Source: a virus. From it: DNA of 58,577 nt. The translations under genes and the position numbers were made by a program. The stretch spans positions 1 to 58,577 of IMG/VR virus record IMGVR_UViG_3300036851_000446. One strand, given 5' to 3'. The notes beneath the pieces are model-generated. The model was not told the origin of the DNA, made no database searches, and saw nothing but the letters and a program-made list of their open reading frames with translations. Below, piece by piece: positions 11,905 to 16,155 of the stretch (within the stretch, counting starts at the first letter, position 1; every line of letters begins with the position of its first letter).

Positions 11905-12109
11905 CCTCGCCGCCGATGCCGCCGACGTGTGCGCCTGGGCGGCGGACCTGTCCAACCGGATGCGCCGCTTCGAACCCGTCCCCGACGACGAGCTGGCGGC
12001 GTTCGAGGCCCGCAAGGAGAGCGTGGTCGAACGCATCGAGCCGGGGTTCTATGAGGACTATGGAGACGACGATGCGGAAAATTCCGACCCTGTTCGTGCG
12101 CGACCCTGA
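11891..12109 (+). CDS. Small acidic protein, 72 aa
   Basis: MTMGDLAADAADVCAWAADL, then FEPVPDDELAAFEARKESVV and a strongly acidic C-terminus. The gene overlaps the end of the previous gene and the first 38 bases of the RNA ligase gene. No domain recognised; possibly a partner of the ligase by position only. Confidence 0.55.
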   Translation: MTMGDLAADAADVCAWAADLSNRMRRFEPVPDDELAAFEARKESVVERIEPGFYEDYGDDDAENSDPVRARP

Positions 12110-12638
12110 CGACATGCGCCGGGTCCTGCCCGAAGTGCACCCGGACTGCAAGTGGGTGCTCGACGGCGAGGGTACGGCCACCCGCAAGTACGACGGGATC
12201 TGCGTGCGCCTGACTCGCGACGGCCCCTGGTGGGCTCGGCGCGAGATCAAGCCCGGCAAGGAGGCGCCGGCCAACTTCGTGCCCGAGCAGCTCGACGAGG
12301 CCACGGGCAAGACGTTCGGCTGGGAACCGATCGAGCAGACCGGCTGGGTGAAGTACCTCAACGAGGCCACCACCGCGGCCATGCCCGGCCTGACGTCAGG
12401 CACCTACGAGCTGTGCGGACCCAAGATCAATCGCAACCCCGAGGGCTACCCCGGCCATCGCCTGATCCGCCACGAGGTCGCCGAGGTCGATGTGCTCACG
12501 TCCAACGGCGAGCCCCGGGACTTCGCGGGTTGCCGTAGCCGCGTGGTCCAGCTCGGCGAGCGTGGGTGGGAGGGCATCGTGTGGCACCACCCCGACGGAC
12601 GCATGGCCAAGCTCAAGGCGCGGGACTTCAAGTTCTAG
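12072..12638 (+). CDS. RNA ligase, RLIG1/DUF5565-like
   Basis: 188 aa. Nucleotidyltransferase motifs are in order: motif I KYDG with adenylated Lys39 (ATRKYDGICVRL), the ARREIKPG segment, motif III-like TYELCGPKINRNPEGYPGHR (about 111-130), motif IV EGIVWHHPDG (167-176) and motif V KLK at the C-terminus. The spacing and the GPKINRNPEGY and EGIVWH blocks resemble vertebrate C12orf29/RLIG1, a 5'-3' RNA ligase, rather than T4 Rnl1. Start 12072 has GGAG six bases upstream; 12060 is an alternative. It probably seals broken RNA, with tRNA a natural substrate. It lies 2 kb from the Ro60/Y-RNA locus on the same strand. Confidence 0.8.
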   Translation: MRKIPTLFVRDPDDMRRVLPEVHPDCKWVLDGEGTATRKYDGICVRLTRDGPWWARREIKPGKEAPANFVPEQLDEATGKTFGWEPIEQTGWVKYLNEATTAAMPGLTSGTYELCGPKINRNPEGYPGHRLIRHEVAEVDVLTSNGEPRDFAGCRSRVVQLGERGWEGIVWHHPDGRMAKLKARDFKF

Positions 12639-13047: not shown

Positions 13048-13221
13048 TGCCGCACCTTCCCTTTGTGGGTGGGGCCATGTCCCCGGTCGATGCCACTCGA
13101 CGCGGGGACCGTTCCGTTCAGGGTGCGCTTGGTTGCACGGACAGTTAAAGCCGCGTGACCGTGCAGAAACCGTGCCCCGTGTCGGCTACCGTGGGTGGCA
13201 ACAAAGGGAAGGGGCCGGACG

Positions 13222-14022
13222 GTGGCACGTCGGCAACGACTCGTCGACAGACGAGAGGAACTCGGGCTCACCCAAGAGGACGTCGCCCGCGCCGCGGGGC
13301 TCACCGCCAACAGCATCCGCCGCTACGAACTCGGGCTCTCGACCCCACGCGGCGGGGACCGGCGGGCGTACGCCGAGGCGCTGGGGTGGGAACCTCTCCA
13401 GCTCGCCATGGCGATGAGCGACGAACCTCAGCCGGTCAACGGCCACGCCGTCCCCGGGTGGCTGGGTCATCTAGCTTCCCTCGAGCAGGCTGCCGGCAGG
13501 GTGGCGGCGTTCGAACCCGTCGTCGTCCATGGCCTGTTGCAGACCGCTGCCTACGCCTGTGCGATCGAAGCCATCGGGCCCGACTCGGTCAGCGGGGACG
13601 CCGTAGCTCGCAAGGTCGAGAACCGTCTCGCCCGCCAAGCCGTCCTCGACCACAACCGCTTCGAGCTCGCGGTGGTGCTCGACGAATCCGTTCTCCGGCG
13701 ACAAGCCGGCGGCCGGGATGTGATGGCCGCGCAGCTCGATCACCTCGCCGAGATCAGCGCCCACCCTGCCGTCGATCTGCGGGTGCTGTCGCTCAGTTCG
13801 GGTGTGTTCTCCGCGGCGTTCGGGTCGTTCTCGTTGTTCGCCCAGCCGGGTGCCAGCGACCCGTACATGGCTGTAACGGAGGACCGTGCCGGCCCTCACT
13901 ACCTGGACCGCCCCCACGAGCTGGAAGCGCATTCAGCCCTGTTCGCCCACCTGTCCGACGCGGCGTGGCCACCGACGGCATCCGTTGACCTGATCCACGC
14001 TGTCTCCAAGGAGTACCGATGA
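13222..14022 (+). CDS. XRE regulator with DUF5753 (Scr1-family antitoxin-like)
   Basis: 266 aa from GTG 13222, which has AAGGGAAGG upstream; GTG 13195 is the alternative. N-terminal HTH (GLTQEDVARAAGLTANSIRR), then a DUF5753 sensor-type domain (FEPVVVHGLLQTAAYACAIE; VVLDESVLRRQAGGRDVMAA; LYLD-like HYLDRPHELEAHSALF). In streptomycetes this architecture pairs with a DUF397 protein encoded next to it, and some such pairs behave as toxin-antitoxin or developmental regulators. Here the partner follows with an ATGA overlap. It may control lysogenic genes or act as an addiction module. Confidence 0.85.
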   Translation: MARRQRLVDRREELGLTQEDVARAAGLTANSIRRYELGLSTPRGGDRRAYAEALGWEPLQLAMAMSDEPQPVNGHAVPGWLGHLASLEQAAGRVAAFEPVVVHGLLQTAAYACAIEAIGPDSVSGDAVARKVENRLARQAVLDHNRFELAVVLDESVLRRQAGGRDVMAAQLDHLAEISAHPAVDLRVLSLSSGVFSAAFGSFSLFAQPGASDPYMAVTEDRAGPHYLDRPHELEAHSALFAHLSDAAWPPTASVDLIHAVSKEYR

Positions 14023-14213
14023 CAACACCCCGTTGGCGCATCTCGTCGTTCAGCGGCCAGAACGGCTCGTGTGTCGCCATTGCACCCGTCGATGACGCGG
14101 TGCTGGTGCGCAACAGCGTCCACCCCGACCGCGGGACCCTCGCGTTCCCGGCTGGTGCGATGGCGGCGTTCGTCGCCGCGGCTAAGGCCGGCGAGTACGA
14201 CGACCTCGGTTAA
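14019..14213 (+). CDS. DUF397 protein
   Basis: 64 aa, full family length. Diagnostic features are WRISSFSGQNGSCVAIAP near the N-terminus, then VLVRNSVHPD and FPAGAMAAFVAAAKAGEYD at the end. The ATG overlaps the XRE gene's stop (ATGA), the standard arrangement for XRE-DUF5753/DUF397 pairs, in which the small protein may be the toxin or the ligand of its partner. It ends only a few bases before the promoter of the Y-RNA/Ro60 locus. Confidence 0.88.
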   Translation: MTTPRWRISSFSGQNGSCVAIAPVDDAVLVRNSVHPDRGTLAFPAGAMAAFVAAAKAGEYDDLG

Positions 14214-14246: not shown

Positions 14247-14253
14247 GGTCCTC

Positions 14254-14318
14254 GGTTCGGGCCGAAGCCTGCCGGTTACCTGGCATTGGACTCCGGTTGG
14301 TACTCACATGCCCGAGCC
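14254..14318 (+). ncRNA. Y-RNA-like element 1
   Basis: About 65 nt. The end helix pairs 14254-14262 (GGTTCGGGC) with 14310-14318 (GCCCGAGCC). An internal loop of CGAA facing ACTCACAT follows, then a second helix GCC-T-GCCGG/CCGGT-T-GGT with one U-U mismatch, and a short apical loop. The CCGAAG...GGTTA order is the Ro-binding signature of Y RNAs from bacteria and animals. It shares the linker ACAAGGTCT with element 2. Confidence 0.75.
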
Positions 14319-14333
14319 ACACAAGGTCTGTCC

Positions 14334-14403
14334 GTTGCGGGCCGAAGCGGTCTGGTTACCCACTCTTAATGGAACCTCCAGTCCGCACCCACATGCCCGC
14401 AAC
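14334..14403 (+). ncRNA. Y-RNA-like element 2
   Basis: About 70 nt. Perfect 9-bp end helix GTTGCGGGC/GCCCGCAAC, internal loop CGAA facing ACCCACAT, second helix GCGG-T-CTGG/CCAG-T-CCGC with the same U-U mismatch as element 1. Many helix bases differ from element 1 yet pairing is kept, which is evidence for selected structure. The apical hairpin CCA-CTCTTAA-TGG has the C-U-NNN-A-A form of an anticodon loop with CUU at the anticodon position. Confidence 0.78.
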
Positions 14404-14416
14404 ACAACAAGGTCTC

Positions 14417-14554
14417 GCGCTGCGGGCCGAAGCGATGCCGGTTACCACTTGTAATGGAGAGGCCCCGGGTTCGAATCCCGGTCGCTGCCCGAAAGGGTTG
14501 CGGTAGCTCAGCGGTAGAGCGCTTAACCCGGTTCGCACAACACGCCCGCAGCGC
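14417..14554 (+). ncRNA. YrlA-like Y RNA with permuted tRNA domain
   Basis: About 138 nt. Perfect 11-bp end helix (14417-14427 with 14544-14554), CGAA facing ACAACAC, then helix GCGA-GCC-GGTT/AACC-GGT-TCGC. Inside, in circularly permuted order, lies a full tRNA body. The anticodon-like loop CTTGTAA (14448-14454, UGU) with CCA/TGG stem comes first, then a 5-nt variable region, T stem CCGGG/CCCGG with loop TTCGAAT (14465-14481), acceptor-like helix 14482-14490/14495-14503 closed by GAAA, TA (U8-A9), and D stem GCTC/GAGC with loop AGCGGTA (14506-14520). This is the order seen in tRNA-mimicking YrlA RNAs. Confidence 0.85.
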
Positions 14555-14574: not shown

Positions 14575-16155
14575 GTGAGCATCCTTGGCGACATCGGACC
14601 CCGCAGCACCCCGCAGACGGAGCGGGCCCACCCGGACCAGCGGGAGAACAACGCCGGCGGGTACTCCTTCACCGTCTCGGACTGGGATCGGCTCGCCCGG
14701 TTCCTCGTGCTCGGCGTCGACGCCGGCACCTACTACGTGCAGCCCCGCAAGCTCGCGGTCGACAATGCCGCTGTCGTGGTTCGCTGTCTCGACGCCGACC
14801 CTCGGCGGACCGTGGACCTGGCGGTCGCTGTGTCGACGGATGGCCGGGCGCCGAAGAACGACCCCGCCGTCTTCGTGCTGGCCATGGCCGCACGTCACTC
14901 GGACGTTTGGGCCCGGCGGTACGCGATGGACCATCTCGGCGATGTGTGTCGCATCGGGACGCACCTGTTCCACTTCGCCCAGTTCGTTCAGGCGCAGCGG
15001 GGTTGGGGTCGGCTGCTGCGCGACAGCATCGCCATCTGGTACGAGCGCGACGACCTCGACGGGCTCGCCTACCAGACCGTGAAGTACCGCCAGCGCGACG
15101 GCTGGACCCACCGGGACCTGCTGCGCAAGGCCCACCCCGCGGCGCCCACCGGCGGTCACAAGGCGCTGTACGACTTCATCTGCGGGCGCCCGGCCGAGAA
15201 CCTGCCCCGGATCGTCGAGGGCTACCTCAAGATGGTCGAGGCCAGCGACCCCGACGAGGCCGCCGCGCTTGTGCGCGAGTACAACCTGCCGTGGGAGACG
15301 GTCCCCTCAGACCTGCTCGACGCCACGGTGTGGGGAGCGCTGCTCGACTCGCATTCGCTGCCGCTCGGCGCGATGGTCCGCAACCTCGGCGTGATGACCA
15401 CCAAGGGCGTGCTCACCCAGGGGTCGAGCCGCACCGCGACGGTCACAGCGAAGCTCGCCGACGTGGAAGCGATCCGCAAGGCACGACTGCACCCGATCGC
15501 CATCCTCAACGCTCTCGTCACCTACAGCTCGGGTGCCGGGTTCCGCGGTGGGCTCACCTGGACGCCGGTCCCCCGCGTCGTCGACGCGTTGGACGCCGCG
15601 TTCTACACGGCGTTCGCCACGGTCGAGCCCGCGGGCAAGCGCACCGTCCTCGCCCTAGACGTGTCGGGGTCGATGCACGGCTATGAGGCAGTGCAGGGCT
15701 CGTCGTTCTCGGCCGCCCAGGGCGCCGCCGCGATGGCACTGGTGACCGCGGCGACCGAGCCCGAGACGATCCCTGTGGCGTTCTCGCACGAGATGATCCC
15801 GGTCGACGTGTCGCCCCGCCGCCGGCTCGACGACCAGATGCGGGCGCTGTCGGGCATCCCGTTCGGCCGAACCGACTGCTCGCTGCCGATGTTGTGGGCA
15901 CTCGAGAACAATGTGCAGGCCGACACCTTCGTCGTCTACACCGACTCGGAGACCTACGCCGGGCGGATGCACCCGCACCAGGCGCTCACCCAGTATCGGC
16001 AGCGGACCGGCATCGCCGCCCGGCTCATCGTCGTGGGGATGACCGCGGCCGAGTTCACCATCGCCGACCCCAGCGACCCGGGGATGTTGGACGTGGTCGG
16101 GTTCGATTCGGCTGCACCGGGGATCATGTCGGCGTTTTCGGCCGGCCGGTTCTAG
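14575..16155 (+). CDS. rsr: Ro60/Rsr protein (TROVE-VWA)
   Basis: 526 aa, close to human Ro60 (538). The N-terminal TROVE HEAT-repeat ring begins NAGGYSFTVSDWDRLARFLV then DAGTYYV, matching the GGY...RLxRFLxxG...GTYY block of Ro60. The C-terminal von Willebrand A domain has a full MIDAS: DVSGSM (362-367), the threonine in FGRTDCSLPM and YTDSETY. The ring binds misfolded or 3'-ended RNA and its outer surface binds Y RNA. Starts at GTG 14575 with GGAG five bases upstream. Three Y-RNA elements form its leader. In bacteria Rsr works with Y RNA and exonucleases in RNA decay and survival after stress. Confidence 0.95.
   Translation: MSILGDIGPRSTPQTERAHPDQRENNAGGYSFTVSDWDRLARFLVLGVDAGTYYVQPRKLAVDNAAVVVRCLDADPRRTVDLAVAVSTDGRAPKNDPAVFVLAMAARHSDVWARRYAMDHLGDVCRIGTHLFHFAQFVQAQRGWGRLLRDSIAIWYERDDLDGLAYQTVKYRQRDGWTHRDLLRKAHPAAPTGGHKALYDFICGRPAENLPRIVEGYLKMVEASDPDEAAALVREYNLPWETVPSDLLDATVWGALLDSHSLPLGAMVRNLGVMTTKGVLTQGSSRTATVTAKLADVEAIRKARLHPIAILNALVTYSSGAGFRGGLTWTPVPRVVDALDAAFYTAFATVEPAGKRTVLALDVSGSMHGYEAVQGSSFSAAQGAAAMALVTAATEPETIPVAFSHEMIPVDVSPRRRLDDQMRALSGIPFGRTDCSLPMLWALENNVQADTFVVYTDSETYAGRMHPHQALTQYRQRTGIAARLIVVGMTAAEFTIADPSDPGMLDVVGFDSAAPGIMSAFSAGRF

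Follow-up and report, generated by a model that had tools for sequence, protein, structure and literature searches.

Ro60-linked Y RNAs of phages and bacteria present varied tRNA-like anticodon loops and may serve as anticodon decoys

The window that we analysed is a whole IMG/VR virus record of 58,577 bases. It encodes a Ro60/Rsr protein of 526 amino acids (14575-16155, with TROVE and Ro60 vWA domains, Pfam PF05731 and PF25045) and, upstream of this gene, three Y RNAs at about 14252-14319, 14333-14404 and 14417-14554; these, their parts and the RNA ligase gene described below lie on the plus strand. The last of them, Y RNA 3, raises the question of why an RNA linked to Ro60 would carry a tRNA anticodon loop. 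Bacterial Y RNAs are already known as tRNA mimics, with only D, T and acceptor arms mentioned in the published passages that we cite: YrlA is described in these terms in an excerpt of PMC8394870, and one of PMC11472068 states that the structure of a Salmonella Y RNA matches tRNA in circularly permuted form. No description of anticodon-bearing Y RNAs was found among the titles, abstracts and passages searched, a scope that left the founding YrlA papers outside.

A permuted tRNA body in Y RNA 3

Y RNA 3, delimited by sequence, Rfam and ARAGORN, is closed by an outer Y stem of 11 bp (14417-14427 with 14544-14554; sequence and folding), inside which lies the conserved Y core CGGTTAC (14439-14445), whose probable partner is TTAACCCGG (14523-14531). 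The sequence, read together with its relatives, then gives an anticodon hairpin, CCA-CTTGTAA-TGG (14445-14457; strands at 14445-14447 and 14455-14457, loop at 14448-14454), with the threonine anticodon TGT (UGU in the RNA) at 14450-14452 and a loop identical to that of actinobacterial tRNA-Thr(TGT). It is followed by a 5-nt variable region, AGGCC, equivalent to tRNA positions 44-48 (14460-14464; sequence and comparison) and, as supported by sequence and folding, by a T arm (positions 49-65; 14465-14481), an acceptor-like helix (14482-14503) and the U8-A9 and D arm segment (positions 8-25; 14504-14520, with U8-A9 at 14504-14505 and the D arm at 14506-14520). The acceptor-like helix runs from its 3' strand (66-72; 14482-14488) through a CC-GAAA-GG closure (14489-14496) to its 5' strand (1-7; 14497-14503). 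Direct reading of the sequence confirmed the order that an earlier note on this DNA had claimed, namely tRNA positions 27-73 followed by 1-26, and comparison shows that the predicted Y stem is inserted where the tRNA body opens, between positions 26 and 27.

The same note had described an apparently intact anticodon arm in a Thr(UGU)-like body. The loop and the hairpin stood up to scrutiny; the stem has three standard pairs and not five, with A facing A at 28-42 and U facing G at 27-43, and the UUA found at 27-28 is part of the conserved Y core GGUUAYC. The acceptor has a single U-U mismatch. The minimum-energy fold of Y RNA 3 forms the T, acceptor and D helices and places the anticodon hairpin in a different register, so that the 7-nt register rests on comparison. 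Once rearranged to 1-26 plus 27-73, the sequence was identified by ARAGORN as tRNA-Thr(tgt), and ARAGORN found 0 tRNAs in the window in its native order. The Rfam tRNA model scored 26.9, below its threshold of 29, and the YrlA model (RF02553) scored 28.2 bits on Y RNA 3, below its gathering value of 69.

By its 11-bp outer stem, its inner GGUUAYC core and its position next to the Ro60/TROVE gene, Y RNA 3 belongs to the bacterial Y RNAs in the broad sense. It shares with YrlA of Salmonella and other bacteria the location beside Ro60/Rsr, the Y stem and the permuted order of T, acceptor-like and D helices. However, YrlA opens inside the anticodon stem-loop, so that in its model the anticodon-like stem strands lie outside the T and D arms without any anticodon loop, whereas Y RNA 3 opens at 26/27 and its anticodon hairpin is intact. 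As a permuted tRNA, it provides the whole body on re-ordering, although the anticodon stem is limited to 3 bp and the acceptor has one mismatch. In red algae, circularly permuted tRNA genes likewise have the 3' half before the 5' half; Y RNA 3 differs from them in the Ro60-type Y stem that holds its ends. It also differs from the Y RNA of Deinococcus, which links Ro60 and PNPase in RYPER and is portrayed, in the extracts available, as a tether of Ro60 to its partner, in that the head of Y RNA 3 is an anticodon-bearing tRNA mimic. From its sequence, we regard it as near certain that Y RNA 3 is a Ro60-linked Y RNA that would present a tRNA anticodon loop in a whole permuted tRNA body.

The two preceding RNAs are simpler. 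Y RNA 1 (14252-14319) folds into a Y stem without a U33 anticodon-type loop. Y RNA 2 (14333-14404) has no T or D arm and carries an anticodon-type hairpin, CCA-CTCTTAA-TGG (14360-14372; Lys CUU), which is found in its minimum-energy fold (z -4.94) and has the same loop as actinobacterial tRNA-Lys(CTT). Directly 5' of the Y RNAs are genes for an HTH-DUF5753 regulator (13195-14022) and a DUF397 protein (14019-14213).

Anticodon hairpins in other Ro60 loci

Searching with the Ro60 protein by tblastn retrieved matches in 342 phage records, all below 60% identity, with hosts that are chiefly Mycobacterium and Streptomyces. We compared loci from 21 annotated phage stretches, IMG/VR and 80 bacterial or archaeal genomes, and collected heads in which the Y core GTTAYC (or one of two variants) lies 15-21 nt 5' of a T arm. 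This yielded 311 heads from phages, metagenomic viruses and bacterial chromosomes, reduced to 196 after thinning at 93%; a copy of the window (L187) was excluded from most counts. Downstream of the T arm, 165 of the 196 heads have a permuted acceptor and D arm, 1 is a canonical tRNA (L093, removed from later loop counts, which thus refer to 124 and not 125 heads) and 30 have neither. The RF02553 model at its gathering value had 0 matches in 13 related loci.

In 133 of the 196 heads, a 3-bp, 7-nt hairpin precedes the T arm with exactly the spacing of a tRNA, and 125 of these 133 have U33. When hairpins were counted for each length of the variable region, 51 were found at 4 nt (46 with T33) and 89 at 5 nt (81 with T33); each of the other six spacings (1-3 and 6-8 nt) had 8-36 hairpins, with T33 in 1-10. 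For heads that fit both lengths the U33 register was chosen, which slightly biases the total (at most 7 heads) and does not affect the counts per spacing. U33 loops accumulate solely at variable lengths 4 and 5, and the anticodon hairpin at tRNA spacing is not due to chance. Its stem pair 31-39 also covaries (AT 25, CG 24, TA 16, GC 9 and TG 1 in 75 heads). A pattern made of the Y core and T arm only, carrying no Ro60 and no loop information, recovered 50 new heads from viral contigs, 35 of them with the hairpin and 31 with U33; in 62 of the 79 matched loci, Ro60 was located at a distance of 135-1321 nt, several of the others being incomplete.

The U33 heads display 38 different anticodons; in bacterial genome loci, 30 U33 heads were found. 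Upstream of Ro60, we found CTGTTAA (GUU) in FuzzBuster and SM23, CTGCTAA (GCU) in BearBQ, CTGCAAA (GCA) in Cashline, ATTGCAA (UGC) in Sparky, CTTGTAA (UGU) in prophiGD43A-5 and, in the nearest relative found (L027, Ro60 72%), CTCTTAA (CUU). The proposal that Y RNA 3 goes beyond YrlA in its mimicry by retaining an anticodon arm was borne out; both phages and bacteria carry further examples. Homologues keeping the T and D arms and lacking the anticodon-like loop had been named beforehand as evidence against a permuted tRNA that would leave YrlA mimicry standing; the 226 permuted heads gave a mixed picture, with 139 carrying the hairpin, 24 being YrlA-like, that is, opened in the anticodon loop, and 63 neither.

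The loops follow several rules of tRNA. G37 follows G36 in 30 of 33 heads and occurs otherwise in 4 of 92 (p 3e-21). The dereplicated heads still share kinship, which makes the p-values rough; this rule persists among the 72 distinct heptamers and on stricter dereplication at 75%, down to 26 heads. It holds without exception in the 64 tRNAs of two actinobacterial genomes. A34 is scarce (7/125), as are stop anticodons (4/124). Loops identical to one from the two actinobacterial genomes were found in 53 of the 124 heads, against a mean of 21 and a maximum of 33 in column shuffles; 54 of 124 were identical to loops among the 265 tRNA genes of the fetched loci themselves (mean 35 and maximum 49 in shuffles). 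Within these 265 genes, a mixture from phages and other sources, G37 followed G36 in only 27 of 77 cases; this set contains many odd phage tRNA calls, so we used the two-genome reference instead, a choice that favours the reading of the heads as anticodon displays.

A tRNA search tolerant of permutation, which the earlier note had recommended, was informative in part. ARAGORN accepted re-ordered Y RNA 3 and, among the compared heads, 54 of 58 once re-ordered; left in native order, 0 of the 58 were accepted, and random rotation gave 0 of 1160. Controls in which the anticodon arm had been shuffled were nevertheless accepted in 726 of 1160 cases. ARAGORN thus backs the tRNA body more than the anticodon arm, for which it is too lenient to count as proof, and we based the case for this arm on geometry, base rules and covariation.

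Anticodon-type hairpins were also found in Y RNAs without a tRNA body. Among 303 called Y RNAs that lack the T arm (with L187 representing the window), 67 had a U33/R37 hairpin, a count that still contains a few T loops, against 4.25 expected from shuffles. After removal of TTCGA-starting loops (T loops), which reduced the hairpin-only loops from 78 to 71, the 36/37 rule was again followed (11/18 vs 1/53); 25 of the 71 loops equalled tRNA loops of the fetched loci (shuffle mean 15, maximum 26), which is not beyond the shuffles. These predicted RNAs are a sister class that displays the anticodon hairpin alone, and Y RNA 2 of the window belongs to it. In a third class of permutation, the opening lies in the D loop; it comprises 13 candidates (in L163, L166, L173, L203, L255 and others), with anticodon loops mostly of 3-5 nt and of 7 nt in only 1 of 11. 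The D-loop-opened heads and the hairpin-only Y RNAs indicate that the body needs no anticodon loop and the loop needs no body; judged from this comparison, the putative payload of Y RNA heads is the loop.

Rate of change across the head

Across 32 independent pairs of heads, changes affected 25 of 96 anticodon sites, 2 of 192 in the anticodon stem, 28 of 544 in the T arm and 0 of 160 in the Y core. The acceptor 3' strand (47/224, 21%) and the outer Y stem (174/944, 18%) changed as well, so that the anticodon is not unique in its rate; in these alignments, the predicted anticodon is the quickest-changing part within the tRNA-like head, and the acceptor 3' strand and the outer Y stem are also fast. 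Among the 14 pairs at least 90% identical, 7 of 37 changes fell in the three anticodon bases, where a share of 3.8% was expected (p 5e-4). A single base out of 201, at anticodon position 36, separates Essence from Nappy (UGC to UGU), and one of the six differences of HyRo is also at this position (UGA). In another near-identical pair, L233 and L267, the loops are CTGCGGA and CTGCTAA, with 36 and 37 altered jointly and the tRNA rule kept.

Possible functions of the anticodon-bearing heads

Many copies with differing, fast-changing anticodons in viruses and bacteria suggest a decoy role. The Y stem would dock the RNA onto the Ro60 ring, and the head would present an anticodon loop that host enzymes may mistake for that of a real tRNA. 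Its likeliest use would be as a decoy or competitive inhibitor of anticodon-reading enzymes, foremost the anticodon nucleases activated in antiphage or stress defence, and by changing the anticodon rapidly while the scaffold stays constant, the heads would follow the tRNAs that host nucleases attack; charging or decoding by the head would not be expected. We give about even odds to the proposal that Y RNA heads are decoys for anticodon nucleases or other loop-reading enzymes, and a probability of roughly 0.45 to the fuller reading, in which Y RNA arrays held by Ro60 would form a fast-evolving panel of anticodon decoys in phages and bacteria, with or without the tRNA body, each Y RNA offering one loop that might occupy or disarm the enzyme that reads or cuts the matching tRNA.

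The tRNA loop geometry, U33, the 36/37 rule, the rarity of A34, the matches to actinobacterial loops, the hairpin-only class and the fast change of the anticodon all argue for decoys. The anticodon stem of only 3 bp argues against them, as does the minimum-energy fold of Y RNA 3, which does not choose it. According to passages of PMC7790460, YrlA may competitively inhibit an anticodon nuclease by which it is left uncut; the lack of cleavage, seen with Salmonella YrlA and the SOS anticodon nuclease, counts against a decoy role, though that RNA is without an anticodon arm. Portions of PMC10264068 and PMC12409363 report that anticodon nucleases act against phages and that phage tRNAs evade them, and TROVE proteins are placed among the RNA-repair systems of phages in part of PMC7824862. 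The evading tRNAs of mycobacteriophage cluster C1 and of T5 resemble the Y RNA heads in that anticodon loops are proposed to be engaged in conflict with host enzymes that cut tRNA; they differ in being ordinary tRNAs for decoding, whereas the heads are permuted, Ro60-linked and closed at their acceptor ends. Heads are also present in bacterial genome loci, and a solely antiviral role would require every one of these to be a prophage.

The enzymes that make m1G37, t6A37 and i6A37 have determinants at positions 36 and 37, and the 36/37 rule, which modification enzymes alone could maintain, fits them. The loops might then be kept for tRNA-modifying or tRNA-binding enzymes that dock on the Ro60 particle, as a handle or a modification sink and not as nuclease bait. 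YrlA is indeed modified by DusA and TruB, according to an extract of PMC8394870, and heads in bacterial loci fit as well, but docking or modification alone leaves the 38 anticodons and the fast change of 34-36 unexplained, and we consider it a less probable explanation, with something over a one-in-four chance. The diversity of anticodons would also be expected if the U-turn hairpin were structural only, its three anticodon bases varying freely by neutral drift, and a stable 3-bp, 7-nt hairpin could be selected by itself. The avoidance of A34, the strict 36/37 rule, the few stop anticodons and the number of real actinobacterial loops, above the shuffle maximum, make such drift improbable.

The earlier note had also envisaged a true permuted tRNA gene that would need circularisation, for which it considered the nearby RNA ligase suitable. 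The halves would be released at the acceptor loop and joined at 26/27 with the help of the ligase to give a working tRNA-Thr. The tRNA-Thr call on the re-ordered sequence and the similar calls for most other heads favour this, as do the RLIG1-family RNA ligase encoded 2 kb upstream (12072-12638; PF17720, 30.8 bits) and the ACCA retained after the acceptor in some heads, although those calls carry little weight given the acceptance of shuffled-arm heads. In L034, L040, L133, L136 and L024, ACCA comes right after the acceptor 3' strand, resembling a tandem or circularised tRNA gene that encodes CCA. Overall, CCA follows the acceptor in just 14 of 165 heads, the acceptors have stable GAAA or UUCG closures, the anticodon stem has only 3 bp, the junction coincides with the Y core common to all Y RNAs called, hairpin-only Y RNAs occur, and in the 10 of 58 heads listed the host tRNA closest by body does not track the anticodon. 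Nor is the ligase a conserved partner: RNA_ligase (PF09414) was detected in 4 of 30 related records, and tblastn with the window ligase found a homologue in just 1 of the other loci, the flanks fetched being limited. A scan for the RLIG1 family had 0 hits in 30 records and carries no weight, as its control was silent too. We reject the ligase-assisted gene as very unlikely. Phages carry 3' halves of host tRNA genes at their attachment sites, and an apparent tRNA 3' half next to the tyrosine integrase genes of BearBQ (L009, about 2540-2590) is probably an attP. That the heads are such remnants is nevertheless effectively refuted by their permuted D arms and by the several distinct heads per phage, each with a downstream D arm and a surrounding Y stem; the best identity to tRNAs of the two actinobacterial genomes is only 0.69-0.78 (10 heads) and the integrase of the window is of the serine type.

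Under the decoy reading, the varied anticodon loops would give a testable reason for mimicry by Y RNAs, since each head names the tRNA that it imitates. If the heads are decoys, they would join spare tRNAs and RNA ligases as an RNA-based counter to tRNA-cutting immunity, and the Ro60 genes that hundreds of sequenced actinophages carry, so far unexplained, would gain a function. There is also a gain for annotation, as three deposited phage tRNA genes resemble Y RNA heads: the tRNA-Thr of prophiGD43A-5 (L014, 2250-2328), the tRNA-Asn of SM23 (L013, 2701-2767) and the tRNA-His of Blueeyedbeauty (L015, 1908-1980) each overlap a head and are probably misannotated Y RNA heads.
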